A stretch of DNA of 64,000 bases from Porphyrobacter sp. LM 6 (GTDB taxonomy: Bacteria > Pseudomonadota > Alphaproteobacteria > Sphingomonadales > Sphingomonadaceae), in NCBI RefSeq assembly GCF_001720465.1, contig NZ_CP017113.1, forward strand, positions 2,604,001-2,668,000. Reading direction: 5' to 3'. The notes under the pieces are model-generated. The model searched no databases, had not been told where the DNA came from, and saw nothing but the letters and a program-made list of their open reading frames with translations. Shown one piece after another: positions 20,864 to 49,260 of this stretch. Every line of letters begins with the position of its first letter. The first letter of the stretch is position 1. A program made the position numbers and the translations under genes.

Positions 20864-21253
20864 ATGAAGACCCAACCCTCCTTGAAAAAGTCCCCTCCCA
20901 AGAAGGCCCCGGCTGAGCGGGTGGTGAAGGACATCCGGCGGCAGACCCGTCGCCACTTCTCGGCAGAGGACAAGATCCGCATCGTGCTGGATGGCCTGCG
21001 CGGCGAGGACAGCATCGCCGAGCTGTGCCGCAAGGAAGGCATCGCGCAGAGCCTGTATTACACTTGGTCGAAGGAGTTCATGGAAGCCGGCAAGCGCCGG
21101 TTGGCCGGCGACACCGCCCGTGCTGCGACCACCGGCGAAGTGCAGGATCTGCGCCGTGAAGCTCGTGCACTCAAGGAATGCGTGGCCGACCTGACGCTCG
21201 AAAACCGCTTGCTGAAAAAAAGCATGATCGTGGATGGGGGCGACGAGGAATGA
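20864..21253 (+). CDS. IS3-family transposase OrfA (copy C)
   Basis: About 129 residues, apparently identical to copies A and B, with helix-turn-helix and coiled coil. Ribosome site GAAGGAACGAAG. Confidence 0.92.
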   Translation: MKTQPSLKKSPPKKAPAERVVKDIRRQTRRHFSAEDKIRIVLDGLRGEDSIAELCRKEGIAQSLYYTWSKEFMEAGKRRLAGDTARAATTGEVQDLRREARALKECVADLTLENRLLKKSMIVDGGDEE

Positions 21254-22230
21254 GGTATCCCGCATCAGAGAAGCTCGAGATCATCCGGATCGTCGAGCAG
21301 TCGCACCTGCCCGCCAAGCGGACCCTTGATAAGCTCGGCATTGCCCGTCGGACGTTCTACCGCTGGTATGACCGCTACCTTGATGGTGGCCTGGACGCGC
21401 TCGCGGATCGACCGTCAGCGCCGAGCCGGGTGTGGAACCGCATCGCGCCCGAGGTGCAGGATCAGATCGTCGAGATGGCGCTGGAGCAATCCGAACTCAG
21501 CCCACGCGAACTGGCCGTTCGATTTACCGATGAACGCCAATACTTTGTGTCTGAGGCCACGGTTTACCGCCTGCTCAAGGCGCACGACCTTATCACCAGC
21601 CCGGCCTATGTCGTGATCAAGGCCGCCGATGCGTTCCACACCAAGACCACCCGGCCGAACGAGATGTGGCAGACCGATTTTACCTACTTCAAGATCATCG
21701 GGTGGGGCTGGATGTATCTATCGACCGTACTCGACGACTTCTCGCGCTACATCATCGCCTGGAAGTTGTGCACCAACATGCGAGCAGAGGATGTGACCGA
21801 CACGCTGGACCTCGCGCTTGCGGCCTCAGGCTGCGACAGCGCCACGGTGCTGCACAAGCCAAGGCTGCTCAGCGATAATGGTCCCAGCTACATCGCGGGG
21901 GAACTGGCGGAATACATCGAGGCCAACAAGATGAGCCACATGCGCGGTGCCCCGATGCACCCGCAAACCCAGGGCAAGATCGAGCGCTGGCACCAGACCC
22001 TGAAGAACCGCATCCTGCTGGAAAACTACTTCTTGCCCGGTGACCTCGAGGCCCAGATCGAGGCGTTCGTCGAGCACTACAACCACCAGCGCTACCACGA
22101 GAGCCTCAACAATGTGACGCCCGCCGATGCTTACTTCGGCAGGGCACCGGCCATCATCAAACAGCGTGAAAGGATCAAACGACAGACCATCGAATATCGG
22201 CGCTTGCAACACCGCAAGTTCGCCGCCTAA
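21250..22230 (+). CDS. IS3-family transposase OrfB (copy C)
   Basis: About 326 residues, intact DDE core, apparently identical to copies A and B. The start overlaps the orfA stop. Confidence 0.93.
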   Translation: MRYPASEKLEIIRIVEQSHLPAKRTLDKLGIARRTFYRWYDRYLDGGLDALADRPSAPSRVWNRIAPEVQDQIVEMALEQSELSPRELAVRFTDERQYFVSEATVYRLLKAHDLITSPAYVVIKAADAFHTKTTRPNEMWQTDFTYFKIIGWGWMYLSTVLDDFSRYIIAWKLCTNMRAEDVTDTLDLALAASGCDSATVLHKPRLLSDNGPSYIAGELAEYIEANKMSHMRGAPMHPQTQGKIERWHQTLKNRILLENYFLPGDLEAQIEAFVEHYNHQRYHESLNNVTPADAYFGRAPAIIKQRERIKRQTIEYRRLQHRKFAA

Positions 22231-23844: not shown

Positions 23845-28246
<4,402 letters not shown>

Positions 28247-32563: not shown

Positions 32564-32950
32564 TCACGTTGCCAAACCATCGATGATCGGACAATCTGGA
32601 CGGTTGTCACCGTGGCACTGGCGGGCGAGATCCAGGAGGGTGCGCCGCATGCTTTCGAGCGCCTTTGCCTTGCGCCCCAATTCGTCCGCCTGGGCGAGTG
32701 CCAAGGCCTTGACCTCGCTGCTGGCCCGCTCACGATCAGACCATAGGGCAAGCAAAGTCGTGATCTCCTCCGTGCCGAACCCGAGATCGCGGGCATTGGC
32801 AATGAAGCGCAGGCGATGAACATCGGCATCGGAATAATCGCGATACCCACTCCCGCGGCGCGGTGGCGCGGGGATCAGGCCGATCTTTTCATAGTGCCGG
32901 ATCATCCGCTGCGAGACGCCGCTTGCCTGCGAGGCTGCACCAATGTTCAC
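32564..32950 (-). CDS. cueR: CueR-like copper-responsive MerR regulator
   Basis: 128 residues. Helix-turn-helix [20 protein letters not shown], coiled dimer helix, then the metal loop with two Cys in [10 protein letters not shown], the CueR arrangement for Cu(I), Ag(I) or Au(I). The start overlaps the copA stop by 4 bases, so it is normally co-transcribed with copA. Since copA is truncated upstream, its usual promoter may be lost. Confidence 0.88.
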
Positions 32951-34290
32951 AGCTTCACCCGATTGAGACGCAGTGCGTTGGCGACAACGCTGACCGAGGA
33001 CAAGGCCATCGCCGCCGCAGCGATCATAGGCGAAAGCAGGATGCCGAAGAACGGATAGAGCAGCCCTGCCGCGACCGGAACGCCGGCCGCATTATAAATG
33101 AAAGCGAAAAACAGATTCTGGCGGATGTTGGACATCGTCGCCTCGCTGAGCTGGCGGGCGCGAACGATGCCGACAAGATCGCCCTTCAGCAGCGTCATCC
33201 CCGCGCTTTCCATGGCGACATCGGTGCCGTGCCCCATTGCTATGCCGACGTCCGCCGCCGCAAGCGCGGGCGCATCGTTCACTCCATCGCCGGCCATGGC
33301 GACGACGCGGCCTTCCTGCTTCAGCCGCGCGACGACATCGGCTTTCTGATCGGGCAGGACGTCGGCTTCAACGGCATCGATCCCGAGCCGGCGCGCGACG
33401 GCGGTGGCTGTCGTGCGGTTGTCACCGGTCAACATCACCACGCGAATGCCATCTGCGCGCAAGGCAGCCAGTGCTTCCGGCGTTGTTGGCTTGATCGGAT
33501 CGGCAATGGCGAATACGCCTGCCACCTGCTGGTCCAGCCCCATAAAGATGGCCGTTGCACCATCCTCGCGAAGTGCATCGGCTTCGGCAGCAAGAGGCGC
33601 GGTATCGATCCCCGATTCCGTCAGGAAGCGCGCGTTGCCTAACGTGATGCGCTTGTTCTCAACCACACCAACGGCGCCCTTGCCGGTCGGGGAATCGAAA
33701 CCGCTGACGGGAGGGATTTCGATGGACCGGCTGATCGCCGCATCGACGATCGCCAACGCCAGCGGGTGTTCCGACGCCCGCTCCACGCCGGCCGCCAGCC
33801 GCAGCAATTCCGCTTCCTCAAGCCCTGCCGCTGCGATGATCCGGGTGACGGCGGGCTTGCCTTCGGTCAGCGTGCCGGTCTTGTCGACCACCAGCGTGTC
33901 GACCTTTTCCATATGCTCCAGCGCCTCGGCATTCTTGATCAGCACGCCAAGTCCCGCGCCGCGCCCAACGCCCACCATGATCGACATCGGCGTGGCAAGG
34001 CCCAGCGCGCAGGGGCAGGCGATGATCAGCACGGATACCGCCGCAATCAGCCCGTGGGCAAAGCGCGGCTCTGGCCCCCAGATGCCCCAGAGTGCGAAGG
34101 CAAGAATGGCAATGCCGATAACCAGCGGCACGAACCAGCCGGAAACCTGATCCGCCATGCGCTGGATCGGCGCGCGTGAACGTTGCGCTTCAGCAACCAT
34201 CTGCACGATGCGGGACAGCATGGTGTCCCGTCCGACCTTGTCTGCGCGGATTATCAGGGCACCGCTCTGGTTCATGGTGCCGCCGATCAG
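32947..34290 (-). pseudogene. copA: copper P-type ATPase CopA, N-terminus lost at an IS fragment
   Basis: About 448 codons remain: the end of the actuator domain ([12 protein letters not shown]), the CPC metal-transport helix ([13 protein letters not shown]), the phosphorylation site [11 protein letters not shown], the HP motif ([10 protein letters not shown]), [12 protein letters not shown] and the final helices. Missing are the metal-binding domain, the first four helices and most of the actuator domain. An internal ATG could give a stable fragment, but it could not pump. The frame is open right to the IS fragment at 34287-34290. Confidence 0.9.
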
Positions 34291-34722: not shown

Positions 34723-35473
34723 TCTCACGCCGTCGACTAGCATCAACTGGCTTCTCTTAGTTGGAGCAATCGCATTTGGGCTAGGCGCACTGATCAACGA
34801 CACTTGTCTTCTCGGGTCATTGGCACGCTTGGGCGATGGGGAGATAAGGCTTATAGCGCTGCCGCTTGGCTTGGCTTTCGGTATATGGGCGGCCGATCAA
34901 ACAAGGTTCGGCTATGAGGCGTCATGGCCAAGCCTCACTGCTACTCCCACTCTGTTGGGCCTTGCGACGCTTGCCGGTCTTTTGTTGGTGCTTATGCTGT
35001 CGATCGTGTTCGTCTGTATAAAGCGCGTTGCGCGCAAGAGGCCGGCGTGGCCCTTCGCCGCGTCGATGATCGGCCTCGGCGTAACTGGCGGTCTATTGTA
35101 CGCACTGTCACCAGCGTGGACCTTCGCTGACTTGATTCAACGCGGGCTTCCTCTCCGCATGTCACCATCAGGCGAGGTCACGCTTGTTACGGTGATCTCA
35201 TCGGTCGCGGGTGCTCTCACGGCTTCCTTTCGGCAGGGCAATCTGCGTCTTCAACTGCCCACTGGCTATGGCATAATTCGATCGATCGTCGGTGGCGCTC
35301 TCATGGGTGTCGGTATAGCTCTCATACCCGGCGGGAACGACGCAATGATCTTGGCGGCTGTTCCTACGCTCTCTCCTGGCGGAATAGTCGCCTACCTTCT
35401 GATGACGCTGACCATCGTCATCGGCTTTGCCGCGCGGAACGCGCTGCCCGGCCGGCGCGCTCCCGCACTGTAG
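34723..35473 (+). pseudogene. YeeE/YedE-type sulfur transporter, N-terminus lost
   Basis: About 249 codons open from the IS edge (LTPSTSINWLLLVGAIAF..). The family signature lies at GLGALINDTCLLGSLARLGDGE and again at PGGNDAMILAAVPTLSPGG, with several membrane helices. YeeE/YedE proteins import thiosulfate or related sulfur species. A TTG at 34820 could restart translation but would lose the first pore motif. The stop falls 36 bases before the repaired end of the convergent marR gene. Confidence 0.75.
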
Positions 35474-35509
35474 AGCCGCGAAAGCACTTCAAAATGGATG
35501 CCCGTGCGA

Positions 35510-36036
35510 TCATTCCTGCCGTCGATACGGACGATGCCTTTCAACCGGGCAGTCGAGACAACGGGCCTGATCGCACAGCCGGCAAGTCGCAACCCCCCGA
35601 GGGGATCGCACAGTAGAGACGACAGGATGGAGTCGGCCGCGCGCTCCAATGCGCCGCGATCCTCAACTGAAACCTTGCTGAGTAGCTCCGCCACAGCGGC
35701 GTTACGGAGGCCAAGCAACTTAGTTCTCTCTACTTGGCCGAGGGCGGTTAAAGTAACGTGAGCCACACGACGGTCAGAAGTCGATTGCGACTTCGCTACG
35801 AGTTTCTGATCCTCCAGCCTCTCGACGACGCGGACGGCGCCTGCGTGTGACAGTCGAAGGACTTGGCGGACCTGTCCGATCGACATGCCCGGCGCGTGAC
35901 CGATAGCGATGAGAGCGGCAGCGGTCTCGCCACCAGCGCTGAAAGCCTCGCCGATCGCTATACGCACTCGATCCGCTACCGCTTGCGAAAGCGCGCCGAA
36001 AATGTTGATCAAGCGATCAGAGGGTTCATCCATCAT
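35510..36036 (-). pseudogene. MarR-family regulator 1 with frameshift in the Cys-rich tail
   Basis: Winged-helix MarR protein, start MMDEPSDRLINIFGAL, with recognition region LRLSHAGAVRVVERLEDQKL. As written, the frame continues past a six-base G/C run (35593-35598) into unrelated residues and stops at 35392 inside the convergent transporter gene. With one more G the frame reads LGGVATCRLCDQARCLDCPVE and stops at 35510, leaving a clean gap. That tail matches the paralogue at 39637 (CRLCCYDGCTNCPID). So this is either a real frameshift, a slippage switch, or a sequencing error. The operator at 36053-36067 lies 16 bases upstream. Confidence 0.8.
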
Positions 36037-36052
36037 CGCAACTCATTCGATA

Positions 36053-36067
36053 TATGCGTCGCGCATA
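36053..36067. promoter_or_regulatory. operator site 1 of the MarR regulon
   Basis: TATGCG-TCG-CGCATA, immediately upstream of marR1, so probably autoregulatory. One of four sites with the same 6-3-6 dyad, all within 36-43 kb. Confidence 0.75.
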
Positions 36068-36147
36068 CGATATCGAGTGAGTGTTGTCGAGCCGTCCCAC
36101 GGGCAGGCTACAGAACTGCCAAGCCGCTAGAGCGCTACTATAGGAGT

Positions 36148-37515
36148 TCACAACCGTCGCCAGGTTGTCCCTGTAGGTCCATCCTCCAACGCGATACCCA
36201 AGTCTGTGAGTTCTGCGCGGATCCGGTCCGCCTCGGCGAAATCCTTTCGGCTCTTCGCGTCCGTGCGAGCGTCGATCAGACGGGCGACGTGATCTGATTC
36301 CCCACTAGGCCCGTCTAAAAAGAAGCGAAACCAACGTTCACGTCTCGAAAACAGCCCAAGGAGCATGCCGCTCGCAATGAGCGATTTCGGGTCATCGATC
36401 GCGACCAACTTTGAGAGCGCCAGCGGCGTGTTCAGGTCGTCGGCAAGGGCGTCGACGACAGCTTGATTGCAGTCATCGATGCCGAGTTCCTCATCGTCGA
36501 TGAAACTAAACATCTTCAGTCGCCGATACAGTCGATCCAAAATCGTTTTTGTTTGGGAGAGCAGCGCCTCGTTCCACTCCAGCGGCTGCCGATAATGCGC
36601 TGACAGCAACGCCAGACGCAGCGTCTCGCCTCCGTGGCCCCGCTCCAGCAGTTCGCCGACGCTCACAACGTTGCCGAGGCTCTTTGACATCTTCCCAACA
36701 CCGGCCGCAGTGTCCGTCATCGTCAGAAAGCCGTTGTGCAACCAGTAGCGTGCCAACGGCGAGCCTGCATGAGCCGACCGGCTTTGTGCGCTTTCGTTTT
36801 CATGATGGGGGAACACCAGATCAAGCCCGCCGCCATGAATGTCGATTGTCTCGCCGAGATTCTCTGCAATCATTGCCGAGCATCCGATGTGCCAGCCCGC
36901 GCGCCCACGCCCCCAGGGCGAGTCCCACCCGATTGCCTCCGGCGGTGACGGCTTCCACAGGACAAAATCGGCCGGATCCTTTTTGTAGGAAGCCACCTCC
37001 ACCCGTGCGCCGGCGATCATTGCATCGCGGTCACGGCGTCCGAGCGCGCCATAGTGCAGGTCGGACGGGACATGAAACAGCACGTGGCCGTGTGTTTCAT
37101 AGGCGAAGCCGCCCTCGAGAAGCTTAGAGATCATGGCGATCACGCCAGGAACATGGGCTGTGGCTTTCGGCGCGATATCCGGCGGGCGCACGCCTAGTGC
37201 GCCCATGTCGGCGAGGTACAGTTCCTCAAACCGCCGCGCGATAACTGACGGATGCACACCCTCCGCGCTCGCTTCATCGATGATCTTGTCGTCGACGTCA
37301 GTTACGTTGCGGGCATAGGTCACCGCATCCATTCCATAAACATGCCGCAGCAGGCGCGAAAGCACGTCGAAAATCACGGCCGGCCGCGCGTTCCCAATAT
37401 GGGCGCGGCTGTAGACAGTCGGTCCGCACACATACATCGTGACCCGGGCAGGATTGCTCGGAACGAACACGCGCTTCTTAAGAGCAGCCGTATCGTGAAG
37501 CTTGATGATAGTCAT
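36148..37515 (-). CDS. cysS: cysteinyl-tRNA synthetase, island copy
   Basis: About 455 residues from the ATG at 37515 (MTIIKLHDTAALKKR). Charges tRNA-Cys with cysteine. All catalytic features are present: the zinc Cys in MYVCGPTVY, the HIGH-type RAHIGNARP, WHIGCSAM and HHENE zinc ligands, and KMSKSLGN. The C-terminal helical region (LIDARTDAKSRKDFAEADRI) is complete. Being on an island, it is presumably an extra copy beside a chromosomal gene, which cannot be checked here. It lies in a minus-strand run GAPDH - XRE - cysS - marR1. Confidence 0.93.
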   Translation of the reverse strand: MTIIKLHDTAALKKRVFVPSNPARVTMYVCGPTVYSRAHIGNARPAVIFDVLSRLLRHVYGMDAVTYARNVTDVDDKIIDEASAEGVHPSVIARRFEELYLADMGALGVRPPDIAPKATAHVPGVIAMISKLLEGGFAYETHGHVLFHVPSDLHYGALGRRDRDAMIAGARVEVASYKKDPADFVLWKPSPPEAIGWDSPWGRGRAGWHIGCSAMIAENLGETIDIHGGGLDLVFPHHENESAQSRSAHAGSPLARYWLHNGFLTMTDTAAGVGKMSKSLGNVVSVGELLERGHGGETLRLALLSAHYRQPLEWNEALLSQTKTILDRLYRRLKMFSFIDDEELGIDDCNQAVVDALADDLNTPLALSKLVAIDDPKSLIASGMLLGLFSRRERWFRFFLDGPSGESDHVARLIDARTDAKSRKDFAEADRIRAELTDLGIALEDGPTGTTWRRL

Positions 37516-37569
37516 CGCCGGCTCTCTCGCGCTCACGGCCTCTTGCCCGGCAGCGACGAATGCTCGGCT

Positions 37570-37872
37570 TCAGACGTCGTCGGTGCCCACCGGCCCACCT
37601 TCACCCTCCATTCGATTGATGGCGCGCACATCCTTGGCATTGAACTTAAGCCGCACCCCGATCCCCCCGCTCGAATCATCGTCGATAAAAACCGCGCCTC
37701 CGCGTTCGAGTGCATCGCGTAACCGAGCTATGTCGGCGAAATCGAGCCCCGCTCTGCCAGCTTCGAAATCCGCTATGGCGTCTTCCTGCAGCCCCGCCAC
37801 TAAGGCAGCGTGAGCGCGGGGCCACTGAACAAGAGCACGCGCTGCGCGCGCCAATGGTCCAGTCATGCCCAT
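37570..37872 (-). CDS. small XRE-like transcription regulator
   Basis: 100 residues, start MGMTGPLARAARALVQW. The pattern ARAL..W......AGL...AIADFEAGRAGLDFADIARLRDALERGGAVFIDDD..GGIGVRLKF is that of single-domain XRE (Cro/CI) proteins of alphaproteobacteria. The helix-turn-helix is slightly unusual in its first half. Located between GAPDH and cysS in the same direction. Confidence 0.7.
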   Translation of the reverse strand: MGMTGPLARAARALVQWPRAHAALVAGLQEDAIADFEAGRAGLDFADIARLRDALERGGAVFIDDDSSGGIGVRLKFNAKDVRAINRMEGEGGPVGTDDV

Positions 37873-37945
37873 GATCGCTCCTACCCGAATGTCGTTCTCG
37901 GCGAAGCAGGCAGCATCCCTATCGTAGCCGCCTGCATCCTGCCGG

Positions 37946-38953
37946 CTAGATCAGCTTGCCCATGGCTACTGCCGTATCCGCCATGCGCGTGGCGAAGCTC
38001 CACTCGTTGTCGTACCAGGCAAGGACCCGAACCATTCTGCCGTCCACGACGTCAGTTTGCGGCAGAGCGACGATGGCGGATTCGCTGCGGTGGGTGAGAT
38101 CGATTGAAACAAGGGGTTCTGAGGTCGTCGCGAGCACACCCTGCATCGACCCTTCAGCGGCCTGCCGAATGGCGTCGTTGACTTCCTCGATCGACACTTC
38201 ACGGGCGGCTGACACACTCAAGTCCACGACAGATACGTTGGGCGTCGGTACGCGGATGGACGATCCGTGAAGCTTCCCTCTCAGCTCTGGGAGTACGAGC
38301 CCGATCGCGTTCGCGGCGCCAGTAGACGTCGGGATCATAGAGAGTGCGGCAGCACGCGCGCGGTAAAGGTCCTTGTGGACGGTGTCCAATGTCGGCTGGT
38401 CGCCCGTATAGGCGTGCACCGTCGTCATATATCCGCGCTCGATGCCGAAGAGATCGTTCAAAACCTTGGCTACCGGCGCGAGCACGTTCGTCGTGCAAGA
38501 GCCGTTCGAGACGATTATGTCATCTCGCGTTAGAGCGTCGTGATTGACCTTGAAGACGATGGTCTTATCAGCCCCCTCGCTAGGCGCTGAAACCAATACT
38601 CGCTTCGCGCCTGCCCGAAGGTGGGATTGTGCCTTTCCGCTCGTCGTGAAAAGCCCAGTGCACTCGAGCACGACATCGACGCCAAGCGATGCATGCGGGA
38701 GGTCTGCCGGATCACGCTCCGAAACAACTTTAATCCTTCCGGAACCGACGTCGATCCAGTCCTCGCCCGCTGCGATAGAGCCCCGGAAGGGACCATGCAC
38801 CGAGTCGTACTTGAGGAGATGCGCCATCGTGGTGACGGGACCAAGATCGTTGATGGCCACCACCTCAATGTCTTGGCGGCGATGCTCGACAATCGAGCGC
38901 AACGCGAGGCGTCCGATACGTCCGAAGCCATTTATTGCGACCTTGATCGTCAT
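37946..38953 (-). CDS. gap: glyceraldehyde-3-phosphate dehydrogenase, island copy
   Basis: About 335 residues from the ATG at 38953 (MTIKVAINGFGRIGRLALRS). The Rossmann NAD motif GFGRIGR is at the start, the catalytic Cys in SNGSCTTNVLAP, the His in TTVHAYTGDQ, and the C-terminal WYDNEWSFATRM. Full length and apparently active. Its active-site thiol is a classic target of oxidants, electrophiles and thiophilic metals, so an inducible spare copy would fit the stress-repair neighbours. The operator site at 39085-39099 is 130 bases upstream. Confidence 0.94.
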   Translation of the reverse strand: MTIKVAINGFGRIGRLALRSIVEHRRQDIEVVAINDLGPVTTMAHLLKYDSVHGPFRGSIAAGEDWIDVGSGRIKVVSERDPADLPHASLGVDVVLECTGLFTTSGKAQSHLRAGAKRVLVSAPSEGADKTIVFKVNHDALTRDDIIVSNGSCTTNVLAPVAKVLNDLFGIERGYMTTVHAYTGDQPTLDTVHKDLYRARAAALSMIPTSTGAANAIGLVLPELRGKLHGSSIRVPTPNVSVVDLSVSAAREVSIEEVNDAIRQAAEGSMQGVLATTSEPLVSIDLTHRSESAIVALPQTDVVDGRMVRVLAWYDNEWSFATRMADTAVAMGKLI

Positions 38954-39636
38954 GCGCGTCTCCGCTTGTCCGTAGTTCAAGCCGCTTGATCGACGGCCTT
39001 CCTCGGCGTTCGCCCTGGCGTACCGCTCATCGCCGACGGCCGGCTGAAGCCGACGGCCCTGAAAGACCGAAACGGTTGAGTATGTATGCGCCGCGCATAG
39101 ACCTATCGCGAGGAGAGTAGAACGTCAACACGTTGCCAGTGCGCCCATGGCGTTGCGTTCAGCCAAGTGTAGTTGCAGGTCGCCGTCACGGTTGCGCGCC
39201 TGACAGGAGGTATCGCCTTTGTGCCGGACAGAGATGCGCAAAAGGCGCTCGCTGCCCAACGAGCAACAGGCGAGGTCCGCGATCGCATGCTGATTGACCT
39301 CGGAACACGTAGCTCCGCCGCACACGCGGTCCAATGCCTAGGCGCAGGAGTCGCGCAAGCCTGCGGATAACGAGGTCGCCACGTCTAGCGGGACGACCGA
39401 GGTGATTCGTGTCCCGGCTCGGTGGTCATGCGGTCAATCTCGCGAACATCATAGCCGATAGCTATCGATTGAAGGGCGTCTTGAGCGCTGCGACATCTCA
39501 TAGCTACAGCGGGGGGGAGTCCCGTAACCGACTGTAAAGCATTGTAAAAGCGCGCTTTCCTAACGCAGTCTCTCCGCAAATCGTGTAAGAGTTTGGCTTG
39601 CTGTCTATGCTCCGCGCACATATAGATGCGGCAATG
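38954..39636. other. divergent intergenic region between GAPDH and marR2
   Basis: About 680 bases with no supported gene. It contains operator site 2 and, near 39606-39622, a weaker related dyad (TATGCTCCGCGCACATA) just before marR2. Otherwise I see nothing. Confidence 0.45.
39085..39099. promoter_or_regulatory. operator site 2 of the MarR regulon
   Basis: TATGCG-CCG-CGCATA, upstream of the GAPDH start, placing the GAPDH-XRE-cysS-marR1 run under the proposed regulon. Confidence 0.75.
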
Positions 39637-40173
39637 GATGGACCTCGAGATCGCAACATTTTCGGGGCGTTCGCACTCATGATCAGCGACGACATCGTTC
39701 GCGCTAGTTCATCGCGGGCGCCGGAAGCTGGCCCTGCTGCCTCTGCATTGGCGCTGCTCGCGCACAAGCCTGGGCTATCTATTCGTATGCTCGCGGTCGG
39801 CGTGGGCCTGTCACACGCAGGAACGGTTCGTCTCGTGGACCGGCTAGCGGCCGAAGGGCTGATCGAACGCCGGGGTCATTCAACAGACGGACGCACGCGG
39901 TCTCTCTATCTCACTGAGTCAGGGAAGGTTGCGAGCGACGGCGTGCTCGCATCGCGGGACGAAGTCATCGCCGAGGGTCTTTCGATCCTCGATCCTGCCG
40001 AAGTGAAGCTCCTGTGCGATATCGCCGAACGCGTCCTCCGCGCTCGTTTGGAGAACCTCGAGCACTCATATCGGATTTGTCGGCTCTGCTGCTACGATGG
40101 CTGCACCAACTGTCCAATCGACGCCGAACTGCACGAAAGAGGCGTGGATCGAGAAGGCAGCGACGGCGCGTAA
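39637..40173 (+). CDS. MarR-family regulator 2 with four-cysteine tail
   Basis: About 178 residues from the ATG at 39637 (MDGPRDRNIFGAF), chosen by alignment with marR1 (MDEPSDRLINIFGAL). Winged helix with LSIRMLAVGVGLSHAGTVRL and the wing STDGRTRSLYL. The tail ICRLCCYDGCTNCPID presents C-x2-C-x4-C-x2-C plus an extra Cys, suggesting a thiol-redox or metal (zinc or iron-sulfur) sensor. It probably binds TATGCG-N3-CGCATA sites. It is intact, unlike marR1. Confidence 0.85.
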   Translation, partial: DGPRDRNIFGAFALMISDDIVRASSSRAPEAGPAASALALLAHKPGLSIRMLAVGVGLSHAGTVRLVDRLAAEGLIERRGHSTDGRTRSLYLTESGKVASDGVLASRDEVIAEGLSILDPAEVKLLCDIAERVLRARLENLEHSYRICRLCCYDGCTNCPIDAELHERGVDREGSDGA

Positions 40174-40195
40174 CCAGCTTGTTGACGTGGCGGCG

Positions 40196-40954
40196 TCAGT
40201 GCTGCGCGATCAAATAAGCTGCGAGGAAGCCCACAACGGTTATGAAACCGATGAACGGAGGCGCCTTTTCGAAGGCTTCTGGAATCATTGCCTCAGCCAG
40301 CATCGCGATGACCGCGCCCGCAGCGAAGGAAAGAATTGCGGGAGCTTGCGTATCGGCCGAACCAAAAAGCAGATTGCCCAAAGCTGCTGAAATGCCCACG
40401 AGAAGTGGGATGCCGATCCAGATCGTGAAGATGTAGCGTCGAGATCGCCCGGCGACTTTCATACCCGATGTACTCGACAGACCCTGCGGCACGTTTGCGA
40501 GAAAGAATCCAGCGATCACCGCAACGCTGATCGCGCCGCCGTTCGCGACCGACATCCCGATCACCATCGCTTCCGGGATGCCGTCAAGGACGCTGCCGAG
40601 CGCGATCGCAGCGCCGCTCCCGTGCTGCTCGCCCTCACGCGGCTGCTCGGTGCATTCACCGCATCGCTTGCGATTCTTCGCGCCACGCCGAGACAGGTAG
40701 AAATTGGCTCCGCTGAAGATCGCAGCGCCGGCAAGCAGCGCGATGACCGCTGTGGGCCCGAGATCGTCCGAGACCCGTTCTCCAATGAGCTCGGTGGCTA
40801 CAACTGCTATCAGAACACCGCCGCCAAAGCCCATGACGGCTGAAATCATGCGGTGAGTGAGCTTGCCAAAGAGGGCATCCGCGACGATCGCGCCGACAAG
40901 CAGCCCACTGCCTGACAGCAATCCCCACAGGCCCGCGATCACGTACTCAGGCAT
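40196..40954 (-). CDS. ZIP-family metal transporter
   Basis: About 252 residues from the ATG at 40954 (MPEYVIAGLWGLLSG). About seven to eight helices. The conserved helix-4 metal site appears as ALGSVLDGIPEAMVIGMS and the helix-5 equivalent as GFFLANVPQGLSST. The cytoplasmic loop RKRCGECTEQPREGEQHG could bind metal. The position usually His in helix 4 is Asp here (LDGIPE), so metal choice is unclear. Last gene of the hydrolase/OsmC - msrA - ZIP run. Confidence 0.8.
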   Translation of the reverse strand: MPEYVIAGLWGLLSGSGLLVGAIVADALFGKLTHRMISAVMGFGGGVLIAVVATELIGERVSDDLGPTAVIALLAGAAIFSGANFYLSRRGAKNRKRCGECTEQPREGEQHGSGAAIALGSVLDGIPEAMVIGMSVANGGAISVAVIAGFFLANVPQGLSSTSGMKVAGRSRRYIFTIWIGIPLLVGISAALGNLLFGSADTQAPAILSFAAGAVIAMLAEAMIPEAFEKAPPFIGFITVVGFLAAYLIAQH

Positions 40955-41020
40955 CACGACCTCGCTTCGCATCGCGAGACGCGAAGCCGAACATGAGACA
41001 AAGCCGCGCCAGTTTGGAAC

Positions 41021-41566
41021 TCATCGATCTGACCTGTCCAAGCGCCAATTCGCTCGCTCGAAATGGCAGCTATAACCCTGGGGATTCCGGGCGAGATAGA
41101 GTTGGTGCTCAGCTTCCGCCTCCCAGAACGGCTCCTCCGGGTTGATTTCGGATACCACCGGGCCAGGCCAGCGGCCTGACGCTTCGATCTCGGCGATCGT
41201 TTTTAAGGCCACGTCCATTTGGGCCTGCGACGTGTAAAAGATCGCCGAACGATAGCTTGGACCGACGTCGCTACCTTGCTGCTCGTAAGTTGTCGGGTCG
41301 TGGATCTGGAAGAAATATTCCAGGATCTTGCGATAGCTCGTCACCGCCGGATCAAATGTGATCTCAACCGCTTCCGCATGGCCATGATGACGAGCATATG
41401 TAGGGTCAGGCATCTCTCCGCCTATGTAGCCAACGCGCGTGCCTACGACCCCCCTGGCTCGCCGAAACAAATCCTCCAAGCCCCAGAAACACCCACCAGC
41501 AAGGATTGCGCGTTCTCGACGCATGGTTTCGCTAACTGATTGACCGTGACTTTTTGCGGAAGTCAC
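41021..41566 (-). CDS. msrA: peptide methionine sulfoxide reductase MsrA (copy 1)
   Basis: 181 residues from a GTG at 41566 with GGAG 8 bases before it. The catalytic [12 protein letters not shown] is followed by [16 protein letters not shown] and [10 protein letters not shown], all MsrA signatures. Reduces Met-S-sulfoxide in proteins. The gene starts 2 bases after the hydrolase-OsmC stop, so the two are co-translated. Confidence 0.93.
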
Positions 41567-41568
41567 GA

Positions 41569-42798
41569 TTACGGCTCCACCTTCGTGGGCGTGATGAATG
41601 CTAATCCGTCTATCAACTCGGTTTGCACATCCGACCCTCGGAGGAGCGTCAAGTCCACCGGACAGCGATCAGCAATCTCAAGTATCCGCGCACGCTGCTC
41701 ATCACTCAACGGCCCCTCCAGAACGACCGTCCGTTTGAAGCGATCGGGGGGCATCATATCTGCCACTTTCATGTGCTCGACGGTCGTGCTCGCGCGCTCA
41801 AGCGGAAATCCCTTGCGGTTCGCGTAAAGTCGCATCGTCATGACGGTGCAGGCCGCTAGACCGGCTGACACCAATTCATAAGGGGACAATCCGCTGCCAA
41901 GTCCGCCGACCGACGGCGGCTCGTCCGCAAACAAAGTGTGCTCGCCGCTGCGCACCGTAAGCTGGAACTTTCCGGCTAGCGTCTCCGTGGCGCTCACGCC
42001 CTTCGCCGCTTCAACTTGCGGGAGGTCGTCCACGAGTGGCGGAAGAAAGCGGTTGGCCCAGGCAGCGACCATAGCGGCAGCGTAGTTCGCGTCGCCTGCA
42101 TCGCTGAGGAGGTGATCCGCCGTATCAAGCGATATGAAGCTCTTTGGGTGGCGCGAGGAGACGAAGATGCGCGACGCATGGTTGATCCCAACCACCTGAT
42201 CGACCGGGGAGTGCATAACCAGCACCGGACGTCGTAGTGAGTTGATGGCCGTCTCCACATCGATTGCTTGCAAAGACTCGATGAAGCTACGACTGATCAC
42301 GAATGATCGACCGGCGATTTCGACCGAGGCTTCCCCGTCTTCCCTGATGGCGTCGAGGTCATCTTGCTTAAAGATGCTCAGGATATGGTGCAGGTCCGCC
42401 GGCGCACCGATCGTTGCCACCGCAGCGACATCTGGTAGCTCTGACGCGGCTACGATTGCTGCAAGGCCGCCAAGACTATGCCCGATAAGAAGAGAGGGGG
42501 TCTTACCGGCGGCCTTCATCGCCTTTGCGCCTGACCTGATATCCTGAACGTCCGAGGCGAAGTTCAAAGCATCGGCGGTCGGCTCGCCGATCCCAGCGCC
42601 GGCAAAGTCAAATCTCAAGACGCCGATGCCCGCGCGCGACAACGCGCGCGATATGTGAACTGCGGCACGGTTGTCTTTTCCGCAGGTGAAGCAATGGGCG
42701 AAAATCGCCCAGCCGCGAGGTGTTCCCTCCGGGGGTTCTAGCCGCCCGGAAATCCGTGAACCTGCCGCGTTGAGAAACGTGAACGCAGTGCCTGCCAT
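41569..42798 (-). CDS. bifunctional alpha/beta-hydrolase - OsmC family protein
   Basis: About 409 residues from the ATG at 42798, with GGGAGG upstream. The N-terminal half is an alpha/beta hydrolase: [11 protein letters not shown], the nucleophile elbow GHSLGG and a late His in TADHLL. The C-terminal half is OsmC/Ohr-like: [26 protein letters not shown] with one Cys, and [11 protein letters not shown] with the second. OsmC/Ohr proteins reduce organic hydroperoxides with paired cysteines. The same fusion is known in other bacteria, but its substrate is not. Two operator sites lie upstream (42907 and 42947). Confidence 0.9.
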
Positions 42799-42906
42799 GT
42801 CTTCGAGCCTCCCACACGCCGCGGTGCGAGCGTGCCAGCGCGCAAACTCGGCCGAACCGATCGACATATTCGCGACCAAACCCAGCACCGCAGGACATCT
42901 CTTTTA

Positions 42907-42921
42907 TATGCGTGGCGCATA
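42907..42921. promoter_or_regulatory. operator site 3 of the MarR regulon
   Basis: TATGCG-TGG-CGCATA in the divergent region between the hydrolase-OsmC gene and lysR. Flanking TATA on both sides extends the dyad. Confidence 0.75.
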
Positions 42922-42946
42922 TAGACAAGCCCCTCGGTCATGATTA

Positions 42947-42961
42947 TATGCGTCGCGCATA
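42947..42961. promoter_or_regulatory. operator site 4 of the MarR regulon
   Basis: TATGCG-TCG-CGCATA, 40 bases centre-to-centre from site 3, about four helical turns, so two regulators could bind the same DNA face and control both divergent promoters. Confidence 0.75.
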
Positions 42962-43031
42962 CTTCTGTAGGGCGTCCGCGGGGGACGTTCAGTCAGCGGT
43001 AGCATCTGTCAGGCGCACGGGCCGAAGGGCT

Positions 43032-43907
43032 ATGGAACTCAATCAGGTCAGCTATTTCATCAACTTGGCCGAGACGCTGAATTTCACGGCAGCTGCTCGT
43101 CTTAGTGGTGTCTCCCAACCAAGCCTGACCCGCGCGATCCGCCGCCTGGAGGAAGAACTTGGTGGACCGCTGATTTATCGTGACGGGAAGAACAGCAGGC
43201 TCACCGGCCTCGGTCAGGATGTCGAACTCGAGTTCCGCCGCATGCTGGTCGCGATGAAAAGCGTAAGGCATCACTCGGAAAACTGGGCCATGGGACGACA
43301 CCGCGTTCTCGATGTCGCGGTCGCTCCGACGGTCGGCCCAAAGGCTTTCACGACATTTTTCGACAGCGCCTTGGAAGAGGTTCCGTCAATCGAGATCAAA
43401 CTGCATTCGCTACAGTCGAGCGAAGACACGTCGGAGGTGCTCTCAGGTAAGTACCATGCTTGCATCCTACCCCGCGAATCGAGACCGGACCGCAAGCTCG
43501 ATGTCCGGCCCCTGTTCAAGGAACGGTTCGTGCTGGGCTGCTCCGTCAATCACCCTTTAGCGGAGACCGACACCGTTCGCGGCGAAGACCTCCTGGCCTT
43601 CCCGTTCGTGGATCGGCTGAAATGCGAGTTCCGCGATCAGATCCTCGATCACTTCGCTCGGCGGGAGGTGCTCGTCCGCCCTCGTTTTCGCTCAGATCGA
43701 GATGATTGGGTCCAGCGTGTCGTCGCTGAAGGGCGGGGGATTTGCATTCTGCCTGAACGATCGGCTGCCGCGCCTGGCTTGGTAACCAGACCGATTGAGG
43801 GTTTCGCCCTGGAACGTGAGGTGGTGATCGCGACCGTTTCAGGGTCCACGGCGCCGGTCGAGATACGGAAAATTGCACAACTCGCAGCGCGTTACGAGTG
43901 GAGTTGA
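43032..43907 (+). CDS. LysR-family transcription regulator
   Basis: About 291 residues from the ATG at 43032 (MELNQVSYFINLAETLNFT). Classic LysR winged helix (AAARLSGVSQPSLTRAIRRLEEELGG) and a substrate-binding domain. An upstream start would read through operator site 4 and is rejected. It heads a plus-strand run lysR - msrB - msrA - gst - corA; its inducer is unknown. Confidence 0.9.
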   Translation: MELNQVSYFINLAETLNFTAAARLSGVSQPSLTRAIRRLEEELGGPLIYRDGKNSRLTGLGQDVELEFRRMLVAMKSVRHHSENWAMGRHRVLDVAVAPTVGPKAFTTFFDSALEEVPSIEIKLHSLQSSEDTSEVLSGKYHACILPRESRPDRKLDVRPLFKERFVLGCSVNHPLAETDTVRGEDLLAFPFVDRLKCEFRDQILDHFARREVLVRPRFRSDRDDWVQRVVAEGRGICILPERSAAAPGLVTRPIEGFALEREVVIATVSGSTAPVEIRKIAQLAARYEWS

Positions 43908-44056
43908 CCTCGCAAGCAAAGTGCACGGGCGGTATCAAAACTATACACACGACGTATTGGATAAAAACTGGAGCCGCTGCGATAGTTGAGGCGACCACCG
44001 CAAAGATAAACTGAACGTAGTGTGCCTGGACCTCTAACTAAGTATTGGAGACCATC

Positions 44057-44500
44057 ATGAAGTTTGAGAAATCAAAGGAAGCAATTGAGCGCCTGACGCC
44101 GGAACAGCGCCGGGTCACCCAGCAGGACGGCACCGAGCGGCCCTTCACCGGCGAGTACAACGATAACAAGGAGGCGGGCATCTACGTCGACGTCGTATCC
44201 GGTGAGCCGTTGTTCGCGTCGACGGACAAGTTCGAGTCGGGCACCGGCTGGCCGAGTTTCACCAAGCCGATCGTCCCGGCGCACGTCAACGAGGTTCGAG
44301 ACAGCTCGCATGGGATGGTACGGACTGAAGTTCGCTCAGTACACGGCGACAGCCATCTCGGTCACGTGTTTCCGGATGGTCCGTCCGACCGCGGCGGCCT
44401 GCGCTACTGCATCAACTCAGCAGCGCTTCGCTTCATCCCACGCGATGAGATGGAAGCCGCGGGCTACGGTGAATATCTCGATCAAGTAGAGGAGGCCTAA
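44057..44500 (+). CDS. msrB: peptide methionine sulfoxide reductase MsrB
   Basis: About 147 residues from the ATG at 44057 ([13 protein letters not shown]). Signatures are [20 protein letters not shown] and the catalytic Cys in [12 protein letters not shown]. The two CxxC zinc pairs of many MsrB proteins are absent (GEPLFAST in place of one), so this is the zinc-free type. Reduces Met-R-sulfoxide. It is followed at once by msrA. Confidence 0.92.
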
Positions 44501-44501
44501 C

Positions 44502-45041
44502 ATGCAGCAGCGCGCTGTTCTCGCAGGCGGGTGCTTCTGGGGTATGCAGGATCTGATCCGCAAGCAGCCCGGAATCGTCTCGACCCGCGTGGGTTACACC
44601 GGTGGCGACGTGCCAAACGCCACCTATCGCAATCATGGCACGCATGCCGAAGGGATCGAAATCATCTTCGACCCCGAGGTGACGAACTATCGCAACATCC
44701 TGGAGTATTTTTTCCAGATCCACGATCCGACCACGAAGAACCGTCAGGGCAATGACCGCGGACTCTCATACCGGTCGGGCATCTACTACGTCGACGACGA
44801 ACAAAAGCGCGTCGCAGAAGACACGATCGCTGATGTTGACGCATCCGGACTGTGGGACGGCAAGGTGGTCACCGAAGTCGAACCCGTTGGGGATTTCTGG
44901 GAAGCAGAGCCAGAGCACCAGGATTATCTGGAGAAGCGGCCGGGTGGCTACACCTGCCATTTCCCTCGCGCAAACTGGGTGCTCCCCAAACGTAATGACG
45001 CTGGCGACACTCAGCGCACCGCCGGAGAGGCAGCGGAATAG
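44502..45041 (+). CDS. msrA: peptide methionine sulfoxide reductase MsrA (copy 2)
   Basis: 179 residues. Catalytic [48 protein letters not shown]. Starts 1 base after msrB, making a matched pair for both sulfoxide forms. Clearly related to, but different from, copy 1 at 41021. Confidence 0.93.
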
Positions 45042-45083
45042 CTGCAACGGCCAGCGCGGCTAAGCCCCTGGATCGTAAGCATC

Positions 45084-45112
45084 GGGACCGCATCGACCAG
45101 CGATGCGGTCCC
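45084..45112. terminator. perfect 12-bp hairpin after msrA2
   Basis: GGGACCGCATCG, loop ACCAG, then the exact reverse complement. No T run follows, so it is a weak intrinsic terminator candidate or an mRNA-stabilising stem between msrA2 and gst. Confidence 0.5.
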
Positions 45113-45173
45113 CGAGCCAGCCAATCAGGCGGTCACGCTTCTTCGCTGAAATCACGTTGTGGGATCGCCCAGC

Positions 45174-45878
45174 ATGCCAGACCTTTCATCGTTTCCGATC
45201 ACTCAGCGCTGGCCCGCCTCCAACACTGATCTGTTGCAGCTCTATGCGGCTCCGACGCCAAACGGCGTCAAGGTCTCCATCATGCTGGAGGAGACCGGCC
45301 TCCCATACGAGCCGCACTTCATCGACATCAGCCGGAATGAGACCAAAGACCCGGCTTTCGTGTCTCTAAATCCCAACGGCCGCATACCCGCGATCATTGA
45401 CCCATCCGGTCCGGACGGTGAGCCGCTCGGTCTTTGGGAATCCGGTGCGATCCTCGTCTATCTTGCCGAGAAGACCGGCCAACTGATCCCAGCGGCGGCA
45501 GCCAGGCGTTACGAAGCGCTCAGTTGGGTATTTTTCCAAATGTCGGCGATCGGCCCGATGTTCGGTCAACTGGGTTTCTTCCTGCGTTGGGGCGGCAAGG
45601 ACTATGAGGACAAGCGGCCTCAGCAGCGGTTCGCCGACGAGTCCAAGCGCCTCCTGGGGGTGTTGGATCGCCAGCTCGAAGGGCGCAACTGGATCGTCGA
45701 GGACTACTCCGTCGCCGACATTGCGACGCTCGGCTGGGTCAATGCCCTGGTCGGCAGCTATGACGCCGGCGACCTGCTGCGCCTTGACGATCACCGGAAC
45801 GTCCGAGCGTGGCTAGACCGCGGCCTTGCTCGGCCAGCTGTGCAGCGGGGCCTGCTCATCCCGGCGAGGCCGGCATGA
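45174..45878 (+). CDS. glutathione S-transferase (YghU/YfcG-like)
   Basis: About 234 residues from the ATG at 45174 (MPDLSSFPITQRW). Thioredoxin-like N-terminal domain with APTPNGVKVSIMLEE and NPNGRIPAIID, WESGAILVYLAEK; helical C-terminal domain with DYSVADIATLGWV. The Asn-Gly at the active turn is typical of Nu-class enzymes that work on disulfides and peroxides with glutathione. Its stop overlaps the corA start. Confidence 0.88.
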   Translation: MPDLSSFPITQRWPASNTDLLQLYAAPTPNGVKVSIMLEETGLPYEPHFIDISRNETKDPAFVSLNPNGRIPAIIDPSGPDGEPLGLWESGAILVYLAEKTGQLIPAAAARRYEALSWVFFQMSAIGPMFGQLGFFLRWGGKDYEDKRPQQRFADESKRLLGVLDRQLEGRNWIVEDYSVADIATLGWVNALVGSYDAGDLLRLDDHRNVRAWLDRGLARPAVQRGLLIPARPA

Positions 45879-46767
45879 GCGTCATCGCCGCGTATTACTA
45901 CAACGAGGGTCGGCGGATCCGCGAAGTCGCGATCGACGAGCGCGTCGAGCTCGACAAGAGCCGTTCGGGCTTCTGCTGGATTGGGCTCAGCGAGCCGTCA
46001 ATAGGCGAACTGAAGACGCTTCAGGCGACCTACAATCTGCATCCATTGGCGATCGACAACGCGATGCACCCGATGTGCCCGCCGAAGCTCGAAGTTTACA
46101 ATGGCGAGCTTTACGTCGTCGCCCAGACGGCCGAGCTGGTTGGAGATCGCATACGCTACGGCAAAACGGCGATCTTCACTGGCCATAACCACCTCATCAC
46201 CGTGCGCCACGGCAACGCCGGGGCATTGGGCAATCTTCGAGAGCAACTGGAGGGCTCGCCCGCCCAGTTCGGAAAGGGCGTCGATTACGTCCTTCACGCG
46301 ATCCTGCACCGGATCGTAGATCAGTATCTTCCCATCTTCGAAATGATCGAAGATGACGTTCTCGAGATGGAGAGGCGGTCGCTCGACGATTTCCTCGGGC
46401 GAGAGGAAGTCGCCCGCATCTTCGGCTTACGATGCGAGCTAACGCGCTTTCAGCGTACGCTCGGCGCTATGGCGGAGCTGGTGCGCAAGCTCGTGCGCGG
46501 ACACTTTCCATGCATCAGCGCTGAAGTTCGCCCCTACTTCAACGACGTCGCGGACCATGTCGATCGCGTTCAGTCCATGGTCGACGGCCTCCTCCAGGTG
46601 TTGTCCACTGTTTTCGAATTCAGCAGCCTGCTGGAAGCGCAGAGAACAGGTGTCATCACGCGCCAACTCGCGGCCTGGGCGGCCATCCTTGCGGTCCCGA
46701 CGGCCATAGCGGGGATATACGGGATGAACTTCAGGAACATGCCTGAGCTGGATACAGCCTACGGCTT
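45875..46767 (+). pseudogene. corA: CorA-type Mg/Co transporter, last helix lost at the IS21 element
   Basis: About 298 codons from the ATG at 45875 (MSVIAAYYYNEGRR), overlapping the gst stop. The cytoplasmic domain and first transmembrane helix are intact, with the GMN signature in IYGMNFRNMPEL. Soon after, at TAYGL, the IS begins and adds a few foreign residues before a stop (46787-46789). The second transmembrane helix and cytoplasmic tail are missing, so the pore is probably not functional. Confidence 0.88.
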
Positions 46768-46851
46768 GTTGATTGCCACTGAGATCTGACCCGGGATTTT
46801 CATCGAGAAGTGACCCGGGTGATGGTTATGTCCCGCGATGCGGGCGGTGGG

Positions 46852-47631
46852 TCAAGCGGGTGATTTTTCCTTTCTGGTTTTGGGTGCTGCCGAGCTGTCC
46901 CTGAACCGGAAGCTGTCATTGCCGGTCTCGAGGATGTGGCAGTGGTGAGTGAGCCGATCGAGCAGCGCGGTTGTCATCTTGGCATCGCCGAACACGCCGG
47001 ACCATTCGCTGAAGCTGAGGTTGGTCGTGATGACGACGCTGGTGCGTTCGTAGAGCTTGCTGAGCAGATGGAAGAGAAGCGCGCCGCCTGATGGGCTGAA
47101 CGGCAGGTATCCCAACTCATCCAGGATGACGAGGTCGAGACGCAGCAGGCGCTCGGCAAGCTGACCGGCCTTGTTCATGGCCTTTTCCTGTTCCAGCGCA
47201 TTGACCAGATCGACGGTGGCGAAGAAGCGGACCTTTTTGCGATGATGCTCGACGGCCTGCACGCCGAGCGCGGTGGCAATGTGCGTCTTGCCGGTGCCGG
47301 GCCCACCGATGAGCACCACGTTGTCGGCGCCATCGATGAACTCGCCGCGGTAGAGTTGGCGAACCATGGCCTCACTGATCTCGCTGGAAGCGAAGTCGAA
47401 CCCGGCCAGATCCTTATAGGCGGGGAACCTGGCTGCCTTGATCTGGTAGGCGATGGACCTGACCTCTCGTTCGGCAAGTTCGGCCTTGAGCAACTGCGAG
47501 AGGATGGGGACGGCTGCAGCGAATGCGGGCGCCCCTTGCTCGGTCAGGTCACTGACCGCCTGGGCCATGCCGTACATCTTGAGTGCGCGCAGCATGACCA
47601 CGACGGCGGCACTGGCGGGATCATGACGCAT
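46852..47631 (-). CDS. istB: IS21 helper ATPase IstB
   Basis: About 259 residues from the ATG at 47631 ([14 protein letters not shown]). AAA+ ATPase with Walker [12 protein letters not shown], Walker [14 protein letters not shown], and [10 protein letters not shown]. It selects target DNA and activates IstA. Overlaps istA by 11 bases. Confidence 0.94.
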
Positions 47632-49147
47632 GACGCAGATCCTTGTTCCGCAGCGTGTCGTAGCGCGCAACGTTGGCCTTGGGTTCGCGCCGCAGGATCA
47701 GAGCCTGCGGGGCATCGATCCTTGGCGGAGTAGCGTCCTTGCCGTCGATCAGGCGGTGCAGGATGTTAAGGATATGGGTCTTGGTCGGCACGCCGGCCTC
47801 CAGCGCCAGTTCCACGGCACGCAGCACGGCCTGTTCGTCATGGTGCAAGACCAGCGATAATATCTCCACCATCTCCCTGTCGCCGCCGGGATGCCGCAGA
47901 AGCTGGCCCTGTAGCTGCCGGAACGCTGTCGGCATCTCGGTGAAGGGGGCGCCGTTGCGCAGGGCACCGGGCTTGCGCTGGACCACCGCGAGGTAATGCC
48001 GCCAGTCATAGATCGTCCGTCCCGGTTGATCGTGGGATCGCTGGATGACCCGTCCATGTTCGCACAGGATCTGTCCTTCGGCCGCTACGACAATGCGTTC
48101 GGGGTAGATCCGCACGCTCACCGGCCGGTTGGCGAAGGAGGCGGGCACGCTGTACCGGTTGCGCTCGAACGATATCAGGCAGGTCGGGGATACCCGCTTG
48201 GCATGCTCAACGAAGCCGTCGAAGGGCCGCCCCAGCGGCATCAGGCTGGCAACCTCGGCGGCATGCACATCGGCAATGGTCCCGGGCAGAACACCATGCT
48301 GGATCTGGCTCCACTGCGCGATGCAATGCGCCTCGAGCCAGGCATTGAGCGCATCGATATCCGGGAAGGCAGGCATCACCTGCCACAGTCGCCGCCGTGC
48401 ATCCTGAACGTTCTTCTCGACCTGACCCTTCTCCCATCCCGAGGCCGGGTTGCAGAACTCGGGCTCGAACAGATAGTGGCTCGCCATGGCGGCAAAGCGG
48501 GCGTTGACCTGGCGGGCCTTGCCAGTGCCGATCTTGTCGACTGCGGTCTTCATGTTGTCGAATATCCCGCGCTGCGGCACGCCGCCCAGAACCCGGAAGG
48601 CCTGGGTCATGGCGTCGAACAGCATCTCATGGGTCTGGAGCGGATAGGCCCGCACGATGAAGGCCTTGCTGTGCGCCAGCTTGGTGTGTGCGGCCTGCAG
48701 CTTGGTCTGCTTGCCGGCGATTATGGCCCAGTCCTCGCTCCAGTCGAACTGGAATGCCTCGCCTGGCTGGAACACCAGCGGCACGAAAGTCCCGCGCCCG
48801 CTGGTCTGGGCGTCGCGTTGACGGTCGGCCTTCCAAGCCCGCACGAACGCCGCTACTCGGTTGTAGGAACCATCGTAGCCCAAAACCACGAGATCCGCGT
48901 GCATCTGCTTGGCCGTGCGCCGCTGCTTGCGCGACTTGCCGGCGTCGATCCGCAGCCAGGCCGATAGCTTCTCCGCAAACGGGTCCAGCTTGCTCGGCCG
49001 TGCTGGAACCTTGAACTTCGGCTCGACCGTATCCGCCCGCAGGTACTTGCGGATCGTGTTGCGCGACAATCCCGTGCGCCGTTCAATCTCTCGGATCGGG
49101 ATGTGCTGCCGGAAATGCCAGCGTCGGATTACACTCAGTAACGCCAT
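47621..49147 (-). CDS. istA: IS21 transposase IstA
   Basis: About 508 residues from the ATG at 49147 ([14 protein letters not shown]). N-terminal helix-turn-helix ([18 protein letters not shown]). DDE core with Asp in [11 protein letters not shown], Asp in [10 protein letters not shown] and Glu in [11 protein letters not shown]. Intact. Confidence 0.94.
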
Positions 49148-49260
49148 GTCGATCACTCCTCGTTCCCCCGACACCAAAGCCAGGGGGAAAGGTCAGAACA
49201 TGGGTCACTTCTCAGTGGAAATTTATGCCCCTCCCGGGTCAGATCTCAGTGGCAATCAAC

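Follow-up and report, generated by a model that had tools for sequence, protein, structure and literature searches.

The window described here is a stretch of 64,000 nucleotides (G000:C1:2604001-2668000) from the single-contig genome of Porphyrobacter sp. LM 6 (2,979,257 bases). It carries a block of genes (Table 1) marked by the palindrome TATGCG-N3-CGCATA, below called the dyad, which was found by a motif scan of the window in four exact copies starting at 36053, 39085, 42907 and 42947. Comparison with related loci suggests that the dyad is the operator of MarR-family proteins encoded in the block, and that the block itself is probably a mobile island of oxidant defense in which a LysR protein forms a second tier of control.

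The assignments of MarR1, the cysteinyl-tRNA synthetase (CysRS), GAPDH, MarR2, MsrA, the hydrolase-OsmC fusion, LysR and MsrB are supported by family scans, and the ZIP-like, GST-like, CorA and second MsrA proteins are named by annotated plasmid copies or by similarity. The open frame of the hydrolase-OsmC gene reaches 42888; its start was set by analogy with annotated copies. Judging by strand and spacing, three putative units can be outlined: hydrolase-OsmC, MsrA and ZIP; GAPDH, the 100-residue protein and CysRS; and MsrB, MsrA, GST and CorA. The promoter positions of the exact dyads (before marR1, before GAPDH and in the divergent hydrolase-OsmC/lysR region) are as claimed in the initial annotation. 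One more site, with two mismatches, lies 13 bp (base pairs) ahead of the likely marR2 start at 39634 (39606-39620).

Table 1. Features of the block and of its left edge, in coordinates of the window (aa, amino acid residues).
Feature	Position	Strand	Basis
YeeE/YedE-type sulphur transporter, N-terminal part lost	34820..35473	+	PF04143 from profile position 80; copy in plasmid pFBAOT6 (L007)
marR1 (MarR family) with out-of-frame C-terminal Cys tail	35392..36036	-	family scan, copy comparison
Exact dyad, 16 bp before marR1 start	36053..36067		motif scan
Second CysRS	36148..37536	-	TIGR00435 420.9 bits, cut-off 340
100-aa protein, no family match	37570..37872	-	family scans
Second GAPDH, active site SCTTNV	37946..38980	-	TIGR01534 409.5 bits, cut-off 367.2
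Exact dyad upstream of GAPDH unit	39085..39099		motif scan
Imperfect dyad TATGCTCCGCGCACA, 2 mismatches, marR2 leader	39606..39620		motif scan
marR2, MarR family, C-x2-C-x4-C-x2-CP tail	39634..40173	+	family scan; open frame from 39598
ZIP-like metal transporter (weak)	40196..40972	-	ZupT model 28 bits, cut-off 252; no Pfam match
msrA, first copy	41021..41566	-	PF01625
Alpha/beta hydrolase-OsmC fusion	41569..42798	-	PF00561, PF02566
Exact dyad, divergent hydrolase-OsmC/lysR region	42907..42921		motif scan
Second exact dyad of the hydrolase-OsmC/lysR pair, 40 bp on	42947..42961		motif scan
lysR	43032..43907	+	PF00126, PF03466; open frame from 42912; start taken over from annotated copies by analogy
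ATAC-N7-GTAT box ATACACACGACGTAT ahead of msrB, probably LysR site	43943..43957		lysR-msrB gap comparison
msrB	44057..44500	+	PF01641
msrA, second copy	44502..45041	+	name from annotated plasmid copies
GST-like protein	45174..45878	+	best models below cut-offs; annotated copies
corA, C-terminus lost after 46766	45875..46789	+	TIGR00383 150.6 bits, cut-off 200.75

The dyad in the genome and in related loci

The initial annotation counted four dyads and no other in the window, and this count holds for the exact form even in the whole genome: the scan of all 2,979,257 bases gives just these four, all inside the block. Copies with one mismatch are two in number and distant from the block (1461085 and 1796292). 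When up to two mismatches are allowed, the window contains 9 matches against 2.57 expected, a number reached in none of 100 shuffles. In a class sample of 289 genomes (288 besides the own one) the exact dyad occurs in 22, and each of the 21 others holds exactly one. Since the other dyad-bearing genomes of the sample hold one each, four exact copies within 7 kb are not due to chance. The dyad is thus not randomly spread in the genome scan or in the class sample, and the regulon marked by it, as put forward in the initial annotation, is considered real.

Related loci were collected by an alignment scan of genome contigs with MarR2, which gave 69 loci; together with L006, L007, L008 and the window this makes 73. 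Reduction at 95% nucleotide identity of marR2 left 37 loci (709,364 bases), which are not fully independent of each other. They contain 102 dyads, 67 exact and 35 with one mismatch, whereas six control palindromes (two of them with the same half-sites at other spacings) give 0 exact and 0 to 5 one-mismatch matches in the same loci. The great majority of the dyads (91 of 102) lie no further than 400 bp ahead of a gene belonging to the block or its relatives: hydrolase-OsmC 38, lysR 33, DUF417 13, GAPDH 11, marR2 11, marR1 7 and others 10, a site between divergent genes being scored twice. Nine of the remaining 11 are found in a leader or N-terminal extension (lysR 4, marR2 4, a third marR 1). 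The last two are a site inside the hydrolase-OsmC coding region of L037 and one beside no recognised gene in L064. Symmetrised over all 102 sites, the motif reads T-W-TATGCG-YSR-CGCATA-W-A.

The arrangement of the sites is conserved as well. Paired dyads, counted with up to two mismatches, accompany all 32 block-type lysR genes, with a spacing of 40 bp in 30 and of 41 bp in 2; block-type here means at least 60% identity, lysR matches of lower identity having been dropped before counting. In the divergent hydrolase-OsmC/lysR region the dyad columns are conserved at 0.96 and the columns elsewhere at 0.59, as calculated from 19 of the 20 alignable copies (one intergenic region, with a spacing other than 40, was left out). 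The same alignment, read by eye, contains a conserved TAGACA and, 17 bp further on, TATATG. The latter overlaps the second dyad, and the two elements may form the lysR promoter. The dyad of the marR2 leader recurs, with no more than two mismatches, in 33 of the 37 loci. Counted from Met13 of the open frame it stands at -26 to -28, against a background of 1.4% of 65-bp bins that hold such a site; three of the other four loci have a site with three mismatches and one has none.

It could be argued that the dyad is a chance palindrome or a repeat of a mobile element with no regulatory role, the more so as the block is mobile and decays at both ends. However, its promoter positions are fixed in diverged loci, it is kept where the flanks diverge, and it occurs at distant MarR genes outside the block (see below), which makes this explanation practically negligible. 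A chance origin in particular is ruled out by the genome scan, the control palindromes, the class sample and the distant marR genes. The comparison of the loci shows the dyad to be specific to the block and to travel with MarR genes.

MarR and LysR proteins as candidate regulators

MarR1 and MarR2 belong to the MarR family according to PF12802 (39.5 and 42.1 bits against a cut-off of 27), and the recognition segments of MarR1- and MarR2-type proteins are nearly identical (LSHAG[AT]VR). The conserved cysteines of MarR2, numbered from 39634, are Cys149, Cys152, Cys157 and Cys160, and there is none in the N-terminal half. The corresponding C-x2-C-x4-C-x2-CP motif is located near the C-terminus in all 120 MarR2 homologues among the matches listed, and this tail may serve as a metal-based or disulfide-based switch. 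The comparison of MarR2 with solved structures gave general MarR matches only (best E 1.6e-05). Two MarR proteins with Cys-rich tails had been proposed as sensors at first, which has to be corrected for MarR1: its tail is out of frame in this assembly (35392-35640) and in frame in the near-identical loci L010 and L013. The frame break may reflect either a mutation or an error in the assembly.

For a test independent of the dyad, a MarR2 profile (E <= 1e-25) was run against the class sample. Relatives of MarR2 were found in 10 of the 289 genomes, among them the present one; the other genomes contribute 11 genes, which are 34-43% identical to MarR2. The starts of eight of these genes carry 13 dyads between them, up to two mismatches being allowed, and about 113 kb around the 11 genes contain just one further site of this kind. 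Two of the 21 genomes that hold one exact dyad each, G177 and G256, have it precisely at the start of the distant marR. The C-x2-C-x4-C-x2-CP tail is present in 9 of the 11 proteins; those of L107 and L116 have a longer last gap. As a side observation, made partly by eye, the distant relatives (L106-L116) combine the same Cys tail with paired palindromes at their own start, the letters of which vary by branch.

The dyad is also found next to marR genes in loci where the block LysR is missing. Five loci with no block-type lysR in the stretch examined (L072-L075 and L077, L072-L074 being near copies of one another) have dyads between or beside DUF417 and marR genes. In four other carrier genomes MarR1-like genes adjoining DUF417 share exact dyads with it (L088-L090, L093, L094, L099). 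Several near-identical copies of this marR1-like/DUF417 pair with an exact dyad occur in Erythrobacter colymbi (G002), and it is seen in G013 and G023 too; in L091 (G001) only the DUF417 side of the pair is present. The pair looks as if it had moved on its own.

On balance, MarR2- and MarR1-type proteins are the likely binders of the dyad, because it stays with marR and DUF417 where the block lysR is missing. This agrees with the proposal of the initial annotation, which gains support from the dyads at distant marR genes and in the lysR-free loci. The opposite assignment, with LysR binding the dyad and the marR genes being mere LysR targets, would be in line with the divergent hydrolase-OsmC/lysR region being the commonest place of the dyad. 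It has to be considered very improbable in view of the loci in which marR and DUF417 have dyads and block lysR is missing, the dyads at distant marR genes and the box type that LysR has of its own, and it was rejected on the loci lacking block lysR.

This box, ATAC-N7-GTAT, takes the place of the dyad ahead of the msrB-msrA-gst-corA unit, where no dyad is present. Of 28 lysR-msrB gaps, 15 hold it exactly and 6 have it in the same position with one mismatch; none of the 28 has it at either of two other spacings, and five other half-sites score 0 to 3 of 28. LysR proteins typically have palindromic sites of this sort, and the box is therefore probably the site of the block LysR. The reversed pattern ATACGC-N3-GCGTAT (31 exact matches in the 73 loci; 9 exact and 11 one-mismatch matches in the 37) was dropped as a control of the dyad, most of its matches being ahead of msrB, and was counted as the second box. 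A single tier of control, as assumed originally, does not account for the msrB unit. The first outline (regulon, MarR proteins, oxidation stress) is right as such and needs a second tier of control.

Mobility and decay of the block

This organism is not the only one to have the block: sequence matches place it in many bacteria and on conjugative enterobacterial plasmids, and it is mobile. Among 72,556 plasmid records searched with the block 364 match. None covers more than 80% of the query in one place, and the best match covers about half of it at about 78% identity. MarR2 relatives are found on 167 of the records, and 161 matches cover at least 80% of its length. The majority of these records (119 of 167) are typed as conjugative, and they come mainly from Citrobacter, Klebsiella and Enterobacter. 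The window matches L010 (Novosphingobium sediminis) and L013 (Erythrobacter colymbi) at 99.86% identity over the marR1 region and at 100% at the compared edges; this near-identity indicates recent transfer.

The present copy is decaying: corA is cut, the marR1 Cys tail is out of frame and DUF417 was not found. The identity with L010 and L011 ends at 46766; from there on corA lacks its final part, the second membrane helix as judged by its sequence. Reading frames that resemble an IS21-type istB/istA pair by eye adjoin the cut end at 46767-49177. Further to the left of the block are an AcrB-family efflux pump (23845-27015) and, at 32947-34275, a frame that resembles a P-type ATPase by eye. The window also contains three frames of 350 residues (2377-3429, 4827-5879 and 21178-22230), two of which were scanned and are transposases with a weak IS481 match, the third being classed with them by length alone; two RHS-repeat proteins (5983-9081 and 18357-20756); and, at 13324-17650, two components of a type IV secretion or conjugation system, VirB8 and a CagE/TrbE/VirB-type protein.

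The putative signal and comparison with known systems

The theme of oxidation stress assigned to the block at first is retained in part: reactive chlorine would fit more narrowly than a general thiol or metal stress. MsrA and MsrB in this block together with DUF417 and RidA in some relatives point to reactive chlorine as the signal. The DUF417 protein of pFBAOT6 scores 102.6 bits with PF04224 (cut-off 27), which is the RclC/RcrB family. RcrB contributes to hypochlorous acid (HOCl) resistance in uropathogenic E. coli (PMC9600549).

GAPDH and CysRS had been described as replacements for thiol-sensitive enzymes. This fits, another GAPDH (58% identical) and another CysRS (36%) being encoded elsewhere in the genome. 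The active site of the block GAPDH is SCTTNV and that of the housekeeping one SCTTNC; SCTTNV was found in 20 of 21 matches (copies not all independent), the 21st, an unreadable fragment in L026, being dropped. The block CysRS contains 3 cysteines against 7 in the housekeeping CysRS and is present in the window, L010 and L013 only among the 73 loci. Both block enzymes may resist oxidation. A role of the GAPDH in ArsJ-type arsenate resistance was rejected, NF033735 giving 342.8 bits at a cut-off of 450; ArsJ itself was not searched for.

The following model can be proposed. The Cys4-tailed MarR proteins (MarR2, and MarR1 where intact) would bind the dyad and thereby repress their own genes, the GAPDH unit and the divergent promoters of hydrolase-OsmC and lysR, and in relatives DUF417 as well. 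An oxidant, most likely HOCl or another reactive chlorine species, would oxidise the C-x2-C-x4-C-x2-C tail and release the repressor. LysR, produced under MarR control, would then switch on msrB-msrA-gst-corA at ATAC-N7-GTAT. Binding, repression, sensing by the Cys tail, the chlorine signal and the LysR tier are all inferred, and the probability of the model as a whole (mobile oxidant-defense island, MarR/dyad switch, chlorine signal, LysR second tier) is estimated at about 0.62.

Several observations weigh against this model. The exact dyad is wanting in 4 of 29 carrier genomes. Seven of 18 stretches around further exact dyads (L092, L095, L100, L102-L105) have no adjoining block gene, and several of these dyads sit inside other reading frames; in the other 11 the gene at the site is a marR, DUF417 or lysR. 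The ATAC-N7-GTAT box is missing from 7 of the 28 lysR-msrB gaps. Three of the 11 distant MarR relatives have no dyad with up to two mismatches at their start; by eye, L106 and L114 show altered palindromes there and L116 none. The distant relatives neighbour other genes than those of the block, so the signal may differ between branches. The predicted structure of MarR2 (22 sequences, mean predicted local distance difference test score 67.4) is weak at the Cys tail, where the score is low. Finally, DUF417 (PF04224) was looked for and not found in this genome and is present in 18 of the 37 loci, some of which are cut by contig ends.

The same scarcity of DUF417 would suit a MarR regulon of identical build that responds to organic hydroperoxides, electrophiles or aldehydes, or metals in place of chlorine. 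The OsmC domain and the GST-like, ZIP-like and CorA genes of the block agree with such signals, as do the zinc-binding alcohol dehydrogenases of plasmid copies. But several Msr genes, DUF417 under exact dyads and RidA in relatives fit HOCl better, and the OhrR model is far below its cut-off, so that a signal other than chlorine is regarded as unlikely, though it deserves serious weight. Reactive chlorine is thus kept as the probable signal. If the block does protect against bleach-type oxidants, chlorine defense would be tied to mobile DNA. A more far-reaching interpretation is possible but tentative: the block may be a horizontally spreading, hitherto undescribed chlorine-response island with two-tier MarR/LysR control and a new sensor class of Cys4-tailed MarR proteins that perceives the oxidant, in which an oxidation-hardened spare GAPDH (having no second active-site Cys) and a Cys-poor CysRS would sustain glycolysis and translation. 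No paper on the operator or the block is among the literature matches listed, as judged by titles and beginnings of abstracts in mostly non-subscription literature. Simple direct tests could start from the operator, from the MarR family with the Cys4 tail and from the GAPDH with SCTTNV.

Among known systems, OhrR, HypR and HypS are redox-sensing MarR repressors, with which MarR2 shares the MarR fold and a presumed release from DNA by oxidation. The reactive Cys of OhrR is near the N-terminus; it is missing from MarR2, the conserved cysteines of which are C-terminal, and the operator and targets of the block MarR proteins differ from those of OhrR, HypR and HypS. Membership in the OhrR group was rejected (NF052638, the sole OhrR model listed, gives 20.5 and 21.2 bits at a cut-off of 200). 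RcrR is TetR-type and RclR is AraC-type, both being other regulator families than MarR. In E. coli RcrR/RcrB and RclR/RclC a redox-sensing regulator controls a DUF417 protein (PMC9600549). Similarly, dyads precede DUF417 in relatives of the block (13 sites). The Msr/OsmC/GAPDH block is, however, absent from the E. coli regulons, and DUF417 was not found in the present genome.

A close likeness in gene content is offered by the IncU plasmid pFBAOT6 of Aeromonas caviae, the MarR2 of which is 88% identical to that of the block. The two annotated plasmid copies, pFBAOT6 (L007) and a Klebsiella plasmid (L006), show no GAPDH or CysRS, unlike the block, and possess DUF417, RidA, DM13, MFS and alcohol dehydrogenases in addition. 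The plasmid cluster, known here from gene annotation, shares hydrolase-OsmC, MsrA/MsrB, LysR, GST and CorA with the block in pFBAOT6 and related plasmids, and dyad-like sites are located in the same promoters.

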